From Nitrospirota bacterium (GTDB taxonomy: Bacteria; Nitrospirota; Thermodesulfovibrionia; Thermodesulfovibrionales; UBA9159): 64,000 nt of DNA. The notes below the pieces were generated by a model. The model was given only the letters and a program-made list of their open reading frames with translations, was not told the DNA's origin and did not search any database. The position numbers and the translations under genes were made by a program. The stretch's first letter is position 1. Every line of letters begins with the position of its first letter. This document shows positions 3,413-55,867 of the stretch, piece after piece. The stretch spans positions 1 to 64,000 of the forward strand of contig JAJYIF010000012.1 of assembly GCA_021790195.1 (NCBI GenBank), given 5' to 3'.

Positions 3413-3436
3413 TTATTTATAATGTGAGAAGCAGCC

Positions 3437-3586
3437 GAGATCCATTCGCATCAGTTTGGTGAGGGATGGATGCGGGGGAACCAAAAGAGGGGCGTATTTC
3501 CCGGCACGGCCGGGGATAGGGCACTTCCAGGCCCGAGCCCGTCAGCTAACCTCGTAGGCATTTGGAAGGGCGATGGACGGAACTGG
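3437..3586 (+). promoter_or_regulatory. c-di-AMP (ydaO/yuaA) riboswitch aptamer
   Basis: The segment carries the conserved sequence hallmarks of the ydaO class: a GGGGGAACC-type block near 3473-3482 followed by a purine-rich GGGGCG stretch, and the diagnostic CCGTCAGCTAACCTCGTAGGC near 3539-3560. It is followed directly by an intrinsic terminator and then by a KimA-like potassium importer, the classic target of this riboswitch. Known biology: c-di-AMP binding to ydaO RNAs favours termination, switching potassium import off when c-di-AMP is high. Exact aptamer ends are approximate. Confidence 0.92.
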
Positions 3587-25526: not shown

Positions 25527-25565
25527 CTACCACCAGCGCCAGAGCGCAATAATGAAGGTGATGAG
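25527..25565 (+). repeat. 39-bp direct repeat, right copy
   Basis: Matches 20024-20062 with one mismatch (position 24 of the repeat, C versus T). On the minus strand this copy encodes the last 12 codons and the stop of the cytochrome b5/c gene (ITFIIALWRWW). Confidence 0.92.
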
Positions 25566-26453
25566 GAAGACAAAACCGAGGTTAATGTAGGCGAGGACAT
25601 AAAATGCCCTTTCAGGCATAGGTCTGGGTATTTTTTGTCCCGCCTCTATCAGTCTCCCGACTTCGGGCATGGCCGTTACCTTGTCTTCAGCGTGAGGGGC
25701 TGTTTTAAGCGCGTCCGTGAGGTCGTGGCCGGCGAGGTGTTTTCTGACGTGAGAGCCGTCCTTCCAGAGCTTTGAATGCGAGACGTCGTAGACCTTGCCT
25801 TTGTAAGCAACAAACGCCGGCCTTCCCTCTTTTCCGTCAAAACTATGGATCTCTTCAATCGTCAGGTCCTGTTTTCCCCTGCTGATGTCTGTCTCCCACC
25901 TCGTCTTCAACTTGCGTTTGAGCCTTGGCCCGATAAAGAATGTCACCACAAACGCCGTGGACGCCATGATCAGGAAGAGGATGATCTTTATGCCCAGGAG
26001 TATTCCGAACCTCGTTGTATAAAAGACTTTCCACGCCGGTATCCTGGCTATAGTAAGAAGTGTTCCGGTAATGGCGAGGACTATGATAGAAAGCCAGCCT
26101 AAAATGAGTTCTCCTTTCGGGAGCCCCCGTGCGGCGTAGGCCGGCTTAAGAAGTATATGGACATAAAGTATAGTGCCGAACCAGGCGATCGCCGTCAGAA
26201 GATGGATGTATCCTATAAGGAGGCGGACAATCTTCTGCGTTTCTGATAGCGGCCTGTAGAGACCTTTTACCTTCATATCCTCAAGGAACTGTTTTCCTTT
26301 TTCCGTTAAAGGTCCTCCGCCCATCGCCTCGATATGACAGTCCCTGCACTGCAGGCCTGTCTGCCTTGCATACTCCGGCGTCGCAAAGGCGATGCTGGCG
26401 GGGCCGAGAAGCTGTATGGCAAGAATAAACAAGCTGAGAAGAAGTTTTCTCAT
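25527..26453 (-). CDS. Membrane protein with c-haem, CopD-like and cytochrome b5-like parts
   Basis: 308 residues. A signal peptide (residues 1-24) precedes a haem c site CRDCH (36-40). Then come four hydrophobic segments (about 72-180) with CopD-like features, including conserved His in IGYIHLLTAIAWFG. A cytochrome b5/steroid-binding-like domain follows (about 205-275, YKGKVYDVSHSKLWKDGSH and KHLAGHDLT), and a last membrane helix ends in WRWW. An electron-transfer role at the membrane is inferred. Its 3' end is repeated at the end of norB, suggesting the two were once direct convergent neighbours. Confidence 0.8.
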   Translation of the reverse strand: MRKLLLSLFILAIQLLGPASIAFATPEYARQTGLQCRDCHIEAMGGGPLTEKGKQFLEDMKVKGLYRPLSETQKIVRLLIGYIHLLTAIAWFGTILYVHILLKPAYAARGLPKGELILGWLSIIVLAITGTLLTIARIPAWKVFYTTRFGILLGIKIILFLIMASTAFVVTFFIGPRLKRKLKTRWETDISRGKQDLTIEEIHSFDGKEGRPAFVAYKGKVYDVSHSKLWKDGSHVRKHLAGHDLTDALKTAPHAEDKVTAMPEVGRLIEAGQKIPRPMPERAFYVLAYINLGFVFLITFIIALWRWW

Positions 26454-27145: not shown

Positions 27146-27192
27146 CTTGTTTTCGTTTTGCAAAGAGAAGGCATATTTCTTAGTTGAAGCGA

Positions 27193-28575
27193 ATGGGAAT
27201 TTCCGAAGACAACAGACATCTTGAAGAACTGGACAAGAAATACATCTGGCATCCCTTCACGCAGATGAAAGAGTGGCTGGATGATAAGCCTGTTATAATC
27301 TCCGAAGGTAGAGACTGTTTCCTGAAGGACGTCCACGGTAACTGGTACCTCGACGGGGTGTCCTCTCTGTGGGTCAACATCCACGGTCACGGGAAGATAG
27401 AGATAGATGATGCTGTAAAGGACCAAATCGACAAGATCGCCCACTCAACAATGCTAGGACTGAGCAATGTCCCGGCGATCAGACTGGCGGAAAGACTTGT
27501 CAGGATAGTAGATCAGTCGCTCGTCGGCGGTCGACAGTCTGCGCTGAACAAGGTCTTTTATTCCGACAACGGCTCGACGGCGGTTGAGGTTGCGCTGAAA
27601 ATGGCATTTCAATACTGGGTCCATAAAGGAGAAAAGGAAAGAGTATCTTTTCTCTCTCTGAAGAACGGCTATCACGGCGATACGCTCGGCGCCGTAAGCG
27701 TTGGGGGGGTCGATATATTCCACAGCGTCTTCGGACCGCTCCTCTTCAAGACGTACAAGGCCCCGTCCCCTTACTGTTACAGGTGCGAATGCGGCGAGGC
27801 GCATCCCGGCTGCGACATGGAATGCCTCAAGAGAATGGAGGAGACGCTTATAGAAAATTCTCGTGAGATAGCAGCGGTGATCATGGAGCCCCTTGTGCAG
27901 GCTGCGGGCGGGATGATCGTTTCTCCGCCCGGTTATCTCAAAGGAGTGAGGGATTTGTGCACAAAATACGGTGTGCTGCTGATCGCCGATGAGGTGGCAA
28001 CAGGCTTCGGACGCACAGGAAGAATGTTTGCGTGCGAACATGAGGAGGTCGTCCCCGACATCATTTGCCTTTCAAAGGGGATCACCGGGGGATATCTTCC
28101 CCTTGCCGCAACTGTTGCGAAGGAAGAGGTTTATAATGCCTTCCTTGGTGAATTCAAAGACCTGAAGACCTTTTTTCACGGTCATTCATATACAGGCAAC
28201 CCTCTTGGCTGCGCAGCCGCACTGGCCTGTCTCGATATCTTCGAAAGAGAAAAGACCCTTGAGGTACTCAAGCCCAAGATCGAGATGCTCGAATCATTCC
28301 TTCGCGATATCTCCTCCCTCGACCACGTGGGAGATGTAAGGAACAGAGGTATGATGGCGGGTATAGAGCTTGTGAGAGATAAGGAGACGAAAGGGCCGTA
28401 TCCCTGGGAAGAGAAAATAGGATGGCGCGTCTGCTATTACGCAAGAGAGAAGGGCGTAATTATCAGACCTCTTGGGAATGTCATTGTGATCATGCCTCCG
28501 CTTTCAATAAGTCTCGATAACCTCGAAAGGCTCCTTTGGATAATCAGGGAAGGTATAATAAAGGTTGCCGGATGA
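27193..28575 (+). CDS. bioA: Adenosylmethionine-8-amino-7-oxononanoate aminotransferase
   Basis: 460 residues from ATG 27193; TTG 27184 would add three. PLP enzyme of biotin synthesis that transfers the amino group of S-adenosylmethionine to KAPA giving DAPA. Diagnostic features: KYIWHPFTQMKEW at the N-terminus, SLWVNIHGHGK, YSDNGSTAVEVALKMAFQYW, LLIADEVATGFGRTG and the PLP lysine in LSKGITGGYLPLAAT. The WHPFTQ motif distinguishes BioA from other class III aminotransferases. No other bio gene is in the window. The ribosome binding site is weak. Confidence 0.93.
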   Translation: MGISEDNRHLEELDKKYIWHPFTQMKEWLDDKPVIISEGRDCFLKDVHGNWYLDGVSSLWVNIHGHGKIEIDDAVKDQIDKIAHSTMLGLSNVPAIRLAERLVRIVDQSLVGGRQSALNKVFYSDNGSTAVEVALKMAFQYWVHKGEKERVSFLSLKNGYHGDTLGAVSVGGVDIFHSVFGPLLFKTYKAPSPYCYRCECGEAHPGCDMECLKRMEETLIENSREIAAVIMEPLVQAAGGMIVSPPGYLKGVRDLCTKYGVLLIADEVATGFGRTGRMFACEHEEVVPDIICLSKGITGGYLPLAATVAKEEVYNAFLGEFKDLKTFFHGHSYTGNPLGCAAALACLDIFEREKTLEVLKPKIEMLESFLRDISSLDHVGDVRNRGMMAGIELVRDKETKGPYPWEEKIGWRVCYYAREKGVIIRPLGNVIVIMPPLSISLDNLERLLWIIREGIIKVAG

Positions 28576-28740
28576 GGAAAAGAATCCCGCCTGATAACTT
28601 ACTGGAGGTCCGCAGTCAGAACTCTTTTGGAGCCATATCCGGCGCGATATCCTATGCGGTATTAGGCCATGTCTGATCCCTTGGAAAGAGCTGTTTCTTC
28701 TTCAACCTGACCGCCATCCGGCGGCGCCGGAGGTTGCTGC

Positions 28741-29502
28741 TTGACAAGTTCAGCTTCTTCGTCCTATGCGCCTTCCGGCTTAGACGACATCGTGCAGGCA
28801 ATCCGAAGCAAATATGCCGAGGTGTCAGTTTCGGCCGCTGGAAAGTTCCAATACCTTGTAGGCAAAGAAGGAGCTAAGGCATTGGGGTACGATACCGCTG
28901 TTATAGAAGCGGCCCCGGAGCAGTTTTTTGAATCGTCCTGCGGCATCGGAAATCCGTTTTCGTTAGGGATGATAAAGCCGGGAAGCGCGCTGCTTGATTT
29001 CGGCTGCGGGGCGGGCTTTGATCTGTTTGTGGCCGGCAGGCTGGTCGGAGAGAAGGGCCGCGTTTTCGGAATAGACTTGACGGAAGAGATGGTGCAGAAG
29101 GCAAGAGAGAATTTAACACTCGCAGGTGTCGTAAATTTCGAGGTCAGGAAGGTTGATTCGGACATTATACCCTATGACGGCATTTCCTTTGACGTGGTTA
29201 TTTCAAACGGTGTGATCAATCTTTCTCCTGACAAAGGTATTGCGTTTAAAGAAATATACCGGGTTCTCAAACCAAAAGGGAAGCTCTGCTTCGCTGACGT
29301 CGTGTTGGAAGGCGAACTGCCTGCAGATCTGGCGGGTAGTGCTGAAGCATGGTCGCAGTGAATCGGCGGCGCAATCCTGGTCGGGGATCAAATAAGATTG
29401 CTTCGGGATGCGGGCTTTAGCGACGTTGAATACGTCGGCACAACGGGTTTTCGAACATCACGGTACACAATCGGCGCCTTATTCCGCGCTAACAAATCTT
29501 AA
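28741..29502 (+). CDS. Arsenite-methyltransferase-like protein with in-frame TGA (candidate selenoprotein)
   Basis: From TTG 28741 (ggagg seven nt upstream) a methyltransferase frame runs to TGA 29359-29361 (codon 207) and, read through, continues to TAA 29502, giving 253 residues. SAM motif I is LLDFGCGAGFD (residues about 84-94) with the SSCGIGNP Cys at 67, as in ArsM/AS3MT. The TGA lies in AWSQ-TGA-IGGA, the position of the catalytic Cys of that family (human AS3MT has LWGECLGGA), and 46 well-conserved residues follow (LLRDAGFSDVEYVG, RYTIGALFRA). Either TGA encodes selenocysteine or the gene is a nonsense-mutated pseudogene; the intact downstream sequence favours the first. Confidence 0.7.
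29362..29401 (+). promoter_or_regulatory. Possible bacterial SECIS element after the TGA
   Basis: Directly after the TGA a small stem ATCC/GGAT (29374-29377 and 29385-29388) presents the loop TGGTCGG, with the loop GG 17 nt from the TGA, within the spacing expected for bacterial SECIS. An alternative outer stem GCAATC/GATTGC (29371-29376 and 29396-29401) also exists. The short stem makes this a weak structural call. Confidence 0.35.
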
Positions 29503-55500: not shown

Positions 55501-55762
55501 GATAGACCTCCTTGATTCTTTTTTCACCGCAGACCGGCCTATAAGATCTAACCTCGCCTCCTTTCCTGAAAATATCTATCCGCCGGGAAAAGCGGTTTCT
55601 AATAAATGACTACCGACAGAGTCGATCGTCACTCACTTTCATACAACCTTAACCTCTTTTTAGAAACCCTGTAAATCACCCTATATGGGTATTTTTGGGG
55701 TACAAAAGGAAAACGGAAAGAACGGATAGTATTTTTCGCGGCCGCCTGCTAAAATATAAATA

Positions 55763-55850
55763 TCCCTGGGGGAGGCCGGAAGGCCTGAGAGTTTCCTTGA
55801 AGAGGAAGACCCCTTGAACCTGATACGGGCAATGCCGGCGTAGGGAACGG
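55763..55850 (+). promoter_or_regulatory. TPP riboswitch (thi-box)
   Basis: P1 TCCCT (55763-55767) pairs with AGGGA (55842-55846). Conserved blocks are GCCTGAGAG (55783-55791, the CUGAGA of the thi-box), ACCC-TTGAACCTGAT (55809-55823) and AATGCCGGCGTAGGGAA (55831-55847). The layout is unmistakably that of the TPP class. It lies upstream of thiS and an intrinsic terminator. Confidence 0.96.
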
Positions 55851-55867
55851 GAACTGGAAGAAAGCGA

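Follow-up and report, generated by a model that had tools for sequence, protein, structure and literature searches.

A probable two-selenocysteine protein of Nitrospirota built on an ArsM-type methyltransferase fold

The 64,000-nucleotide stretch of Nitrospirota DNA analysed here (the window) holds a methyltransferase frame in which TGA stands where arsenite methyltransferases (ArsM, AS3MT) have their catalytic Cys. Does this TGA encode selenocysteine (Sec), and what kind of enzyme does the gene specify? A preliminary description, which read the frame as 28741-29502, noted that a single TGA (codon 207) interrupts it and that 46 family-like codons follow. Both points are confirmed, and the frame ends in TAA. 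The start is wrong. The nearest relative, L017 from a Nitrospirota MAG (82% identical), carries TTA where TTG 28741 had been taken as the initiation codon, so we discarded that start; similarity to L017 also extends upstream of it. With TGA read through, the frame reaches back to an ATG at 28669 (MSDPLERAVSSST-U-PPSGGAGGCC...). The 24 codons thus added include a second in-frame TGA, which had been overlooked since the true start lies further upstream than had been supposed. The two TGAs are the sole interruptions of the full frame (Table 1). Most probably, the product is a selenoprotein of 277 residues, two of them Sec: an ArsM-type methyltransferase with Sec231 in the catalytic position and Sec14 on a flexible N-terminal arm. 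Throughout, codons, conservation, machinery and covariation are taken as observed, and actual Sec insertion as deduced from them.

Table 1. Position of the gene and its features in the window
Feature	Position	Strand	Remarks
Probable double-selenoprotein gene	28669..29502	+	277 residues, ArsM-like methyltransferase domain; ATG 28669-28671, TAA 29500-29502
First TGA, Sec14 (very likely)	28708..28710	+	N-terminal motif SST-U-PPSGGAGGCC
SECIS-like hairpin, first TGA	28721..28740	+	GGA loop 18 nt after TGA; 3' strand has a single bulged U
ArsM-like class I SAM-dependent methyltransferase core up to second Sec	28771..29358	+	Pfam Methyltransf_31, 9.2e-31
Cys91, invariant	28939-28941	+	FESSCGIGNP; two residues off the Cys72 position
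Gly at the As-binding Cys174 position	29209-29211	+	ISNGVINL; ArsM has ISNC
Second TGA, Sec231 (nearly certain)	29359..29361	+	ArsM catalytic Cys224 position, AWSQ-U-IGGA
46 codons after second TGA	29362..29499	+	The fold's C-terminal helix plus two strands; pLDDT mostly >90
SECIS-like hairpin, second TGA	29373..29389	+	Loop GGUCG starts 17 nt after TGA

Bacterial selenoproteins depend on SelA, SelB, SelD and a tRNA-Sec with the UCA anticodon. The genome to which the window belongs (G000; 3.3 Mb, 96% complete) encodes all four: selC with UCA (72.9 bits), selA (614 bits) adjoining selB (377 bits), and selD (349 bits). The selD gene (L073, G000:C40:63237-64154) itself contains an in-frame TGA, making it probable that this host's SelD is a selenoprotein, of a known kind. 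The preliminary description had named two findings that would overturn a Sec reading, namely a genome lacking this machinery, and orthologues lacking Cys or Sec at the site or otherwise inactivated; neither was encountered. The genome also carries a second tRNA-Sec-shaped tRNA, with a GCA anticodon and called tRNA-Cys by ARAGORN (L002:1501-1595 = G000:C36:66663-66753), just upstream of a gene resembling the D component of 2-hydroxyglutaryl-CoA dehydratase (L002:1709-2986). Such selC*-type tRNA-Cys species have been described from Nitrospirae (PMC7609411). Their existence raises the idea that TGA is decoded here as something other than Sec, either by general reassignment or as Cys by a tRNA-Sec-like tRNA-Cys, a form of which has the UCA anticodon in some bacteria (PMC7609411). 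However, the anticodon of the tRNA in question is GCA and not UCA, the gene immediately upstream ends at an ordinary TGA (28573-28575), and a proper tRNA-Sec(UCA) is present together with SelA, SelB and SelD. We therefore hold non-Sec decoding to be highly improbable.

At the second TGA, a phmmer alignment places the codon opposite the catalytic Cys of CrArsM (5evj, GECLAGA) and CmArsM (4kw7, GECLGGA), as the preliminary description had claimed. L017 shares this TGA. When 396 genomes of the phylum were searched, 20 more close orthologues came up, giving a final set of 22 with the window included. All 22, from several families of the phylum, carry TGA at this codon, and the more distant, classical ArsMs have Cys. 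An in-frame TGA that aligns with a conserved Cys of homologues and is kept among TGA-bearing homologues is a feature of bacterial selenoproteins, and Sec231 has it. Damage, whether a nonsense mutation or a pseudogene, would also leave in-frame stops, and the relatives' genomes are largely metagenome assemblies. Yet the same TGAs recur in 22 orthologues (second TGA) and 17 (first TGA), further disruptions are absent, and purifying selection persists past the stop: relative to L017, dN/dS is 0.204 before the second TGA and 0.158 after it, and the tail must therefore be translated and under selection. On TGA conservation and dN/dS we rejected the pseudogene reading, which retains a vanishingly small probability; the earlier argument that a chance nonsense mutation is implausible here holds on the same grounds. 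With the machinery and the covarying hairpin described below, we regard it as nearly certain that this TGA encodes Sec, as first proposed.

A short stem with a GG-containing loop 17 nt downstream had been offered in support of that proposal. Its position stands, but its strength in the window alone does not. In the conserved register the window's hairpin has 5 bp with a U.G closing pair and an outer A.C mismatch (–3.8 kcal/mol); an alternative fold that includes an outer stem reaches –6.8 kcal/mol. Folding 29362-29410 as a single sequence, a check suggested at the outset, gave a result no better than shuffles (z –0.55). Because the window's own hairpin is weak, the single-sequence argument is insufficient. 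Across the 22 orthologues, a 6-bp helix is paired in 97.7% of cells, with compensatory changes in 4 of the 6 pairs; its covariation score was equalled in none of 500 shuffles (0/500), sliding by one column destroys it, and RNAalifold recovers it unprompted. Judged by alignment, the putative hairpin becomes convincing, and does so only through orthologue comparison. A published SECIS model sets an energy threshold of ≤ –7.5 kcal/mol. The window shows SECIS geometry at both TGAs (+18 at the first, +17 at the second); the first hairpin passes in energy (–8.3 kcal/mol) and the second falls short in either form. Most orthologues reach the threshold, with covariation.

Termination and Sec insertion compete at UGA as a general property. 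Together with the weak hairpin of the window, this could mean that TGA 29359 acts mostly as a stop, with the short form functional when selenium is poor and Sec read-through occurring only when selenium is available. The last 46 residues, however, make up one helix and two strands in the predicted fold and are under strong purifying selection, so that we see little prospect of the short form being the main product. The full-length reading with Sec231 is retained below.

The first TGA lies in an N-terminal extension found in 17 of the 22 orthologues (L077/L078 and L092/L093 being near copies), and the Sec14 codon is TGA in 17/17. Neither Cys nor any other residue was seen at this position among the 17; with no Cys form of the motif, the usual Cys/Sec pair test is inapplicable to Sec14. 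The conserved motif reads U-[PAK]-P-x-G-G-x-G-x-C, with a looser form over the orthologues (U-[PAK]-[PS]-x-x-G-x-x-x-C/x), and is retained down to 48% overall identity; the Cys nine residues after Sec14 is present in 13/17. Translation of the 17 would start at ATG (TTG in one) 9-19 codons before the first TGA, mostly exactly 13; the ATG stands 9, 10 or 13 codons ahead in nearly all and is often preceded by a Shine-Dalgarno-like stretch.

This spacing is also leader-like, and one could suppose that only Sec231 is real, the upstream TGA closing a 13-codon leader, the enzyme starting downstream, and N-terminal conservation reflecting translational control. The dN/dS of the N-terminal 24 codons relative to L017 (1.45, from very few sites) is not low and is uninformative in this respect, some members lack the region, and the support from the first-TGA hairpin is modest. 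That hairpin is paired in 89% of cells and is lost on sliding, with 3 of 6 pairs changed on both sides (in one sequence each); its inner two pairs fail in 5/17, and its energy is barely better than that of synonymous recodings (–14.2 versus –12.7). Against a leader, in 17/17 the frame continues into the core without interruption and in register, the PPSGGAGGC motif after the TGA is conserved at the amino-acid level with varying third positions, and Sec machinery is present. Substitution rates over the four codons that precede the hairpin (0.54/0.39/0.19 at codon positions 3/1/2) are heavy at third and light at second positions, a coding-like pattern. Moreover, five orthologues (L077, L078, L081, L089 and L092) lack any ATG, GTG or TTG in the interval from the first TGA to the enzyme's first helix. 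Their proteins are therefore either made via this TGA or begun inside the fold; from these sequences, read-through looks obligatory in the five. We consider the leader explanation unlikely, and the first TGA very likely to encode Sec14. Five of the 22 orthologues have no arm at all, and the arm is thus dispensable for some members. On the tree, the N-terminal Sec needs two changes, and it may have a single origin.

What does the enzyme act on? We ran AlphaFold2 on the 22-row alignment with Cys substituted for Sec (mean pLDDT 85.7). The class I methyltransferase core is mostly above 90, and residues 1-32 are disordered (pLDDT <50). The closest solved folds to this predicted structure are all ArsM/AS3MT (5evj, 4fr0, 6cx6), with TM scores against classical ArsM/AS3MT structures of 0.56-0.66 over the query, so the class I SAM methyltransferase fold is nearest ArsM. 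The metalloid-binding residues differ. At the equivalents of Cys72, Cys174 and Cys224 the protein has, respectively, a Cys shifted by two residues (FCGVGNP versus LGCGNP in ArsM), Gly (in 22/22 orthologues) and Sec. The CmArsM variants C174A and C224A are inactive on As(III) as well as on MAs(III), and C72A has lost its activity on As(III) (PMC3877260); all three Cys are required for As(III), and 174 and 224 for MAs(III) (PMC3877260, PMC5552862). Since two of the three As-binding positions are not Cys, the name arsenite methyltransferase is doubtful: of the original annotation as arsenite methyltransferase-like, the ArsM fold, as predicted, stands and the arsenite label is in doubt. By its residues, the protein is predicted to be a non-canonical rather than a canonical arsenite methyltransferase. 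A two-ligand soft-metal site could be made up of Sec231 and the invariant Cys91, so an ArsM-like mode of action is still plausible. Elsewhere G000 encodes an Acr3 arsenite exporter; no other ArsM-like gene was found in this genome at 1e-15.

Genomic context gave no lead. In the window the gene is flanked by a class-III aminotransferase gene (27184-28575) and, on the other strand, a DnaJ/TPR protein gene. Among 20 orthologue neighbourhoods no shared partner was found apart from generic ABC ATPases and antisense frames; we accordingly rejected a conserved operon, and without conserved neighbours the context yields no function. Elsewhere in the window lie a c-di-AMP (ydaO/yuaA) riboswitch (3423-3575) and a TPP riboswitch (55758-55863), both above Rfam gathering scores, and, at 25527-26453 (–), a gene for a membrane protein that combines CopD and cytochrome b5-like domains with a CRDCH haem-binding-like motif at its N-terminus.

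We propose the following mechanism. SelB with Sec-tRNA(UCA) would decode both UGAs, each aided by a short hairpin with a G-rich loop 17-18 nt downstream. Residues 35-277 would adopt the ArsM-type SAM-dependent methyltransferase fold, in which Sec231 would replace the metalloid-binding catalytic Cys; a metalloid could be held by Sec231 and Cys91 and receive a methyl group from SAM. The N-terminal ~32 residues would form a flexible arm supplying a second selenol, Sec14. Since Gly replaces the second of the usual As-binding Cys residues, Sec14 might be an extra soft ligand that completes metalloid capture. Alternatively, it might be a reductant that resolves an oxidised Sec231/Cys91 pair after methyl transfer. 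In either case the arm's Cys nine residues further on might act alongside it. The enzyme would methylate a trivalent metalloid, or some related soft element, under anoxia, and a substrate of this kind seems likely. Given that arm-less members exist, the arm would be an accessory, perhaps replaced in those members by a partner protein. More tentatively, and with somewhat less than even confidence, we suggest that in the Nitrospirota clade with Gly for Cys174 the N-terminal Sec arm and the catalytic Sec together form a two-selenol site that captures or reduces a metalloid, either one other than arsenite or in a different manner from arsenite.

These features bear on annotation. A standard gene caller would report the gene as a 206-residue fragment. 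Selenoprotein finders rely on Cys/Sec pairs, and an N-terminal Sec that has no Cys counterpart and precedes an automatically chosen downstream start escapes them. If both Sec residues are real, an N-terminal double-Sec layout joins the ArsM-type selenoproteins, and the clade is set apart as one whose arsenite methyltransferase label needs an assay, a point that touches arsM-based surveys of arsenic methylation in sediments.

How does the protein compare with known systems? Sec at the catalytic site of ArsM-type enzymes is already known. In the review PMC13188914, arsenite methyltransferase (UxxG) is among the listed selenoproteins, ahead of the 'predicted' entries, with a citation of Fomenko et al. 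2007; PMC9312934 also lists it, citing the same study. A classical ArsM clade that also has Sec (SG-U-ITG), distinct from the present one, was observed in many genomes of the same order. Two distant ArsM-like loci, L062 and L063 (G031, G058), carry TGA in the catalytic position (NWFA-U-I[SA]GA), with F[TA]GVSN and ANGIFNL replacing the As-binding Cys; going by these motifs, they may represent a further Sec methyltransferase clade that lacks the other two As-binding Cys. Three relatives from the phylum (L096, L098, L101) share TSNG and have no recognisable Sec or Cys motif at the catalytic site; such sequences perhaps act on non-metalloid substrates.

The N-terminal Sec arm is apparently undescribed. 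Multi-Sec families have reportedly been described by Haft and Gwadz in 2023 and by Haft and Tolstoy in 2025. For these families the analysis drew on the NCBIfam models and the review PMC13188914. The papers searched make no mention of an N-terminal Sec in the ArsM-type family, a silence that proves no absence. NCBIfam models do not cover the segment, matches beginning at residue 36-41. A search for the double-Sec form in 379 genomes of the phylum of L027 (1e-50) returned only a single relative with one TGA, plus another that has none, so that among 396 + 379 genomes the arm is confined to its own phylum.

The classical ArsM/AS3MT enzymes (CmArsM, CrArsM, human AS3MT) share the fold, and their position 224 aligns with Sec231; in contrast to them, our protein has Sec for Cys, no Cys174, no exact Cys72 equivalent and no C-terminal domain. 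MduS (PF13649; PMC13188914) is likewise a methyltransferase with two Sec residues, but its motif is CxxU, and the MduS model was not among the profile matches at 1e-15. Sec-ArsM (PRK11873/NF008823) has the same catalytic Sec position, UxxG and SAM-dependent ArsM-type fold. Our protein differs in having Gly for the second As-binding Cys, the first displaced by two, and an extra N-terminal Sec; it scores 200 bits against NF008823, below the cut-off of 263. The best library matches are NCBIfam NF041537 ArsM_AhpD_UU, NF041536 ArsM_DUF2284_UU and NF047649 MTase_UXPK_star (2.6e–80 to 9e–78), in which, as here, a methyltransferase with Sec at UxxG is accompanied by at least one further Sec. The scores of 262-270 bits lie far below the cut-offs of 460-575 and the match ends near profile position 248, which leaves the protein outside these families. 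Judged by names and profile lengths, their extra Sec lies past profile position ~248, in a partner domain or tail at the C-terminus; our protein has no such C-terminal partner and carries its extra Sec near the N-terminus. In the NCBIfam models and PMC13188914, ArsM-type methyltransferases are paired with a Sec-bearing AhpD, DUF2284 or UXPK tail. These pairings fit the view that enzymes of this kind gain their second selenol in various ways, in the present case at the front.
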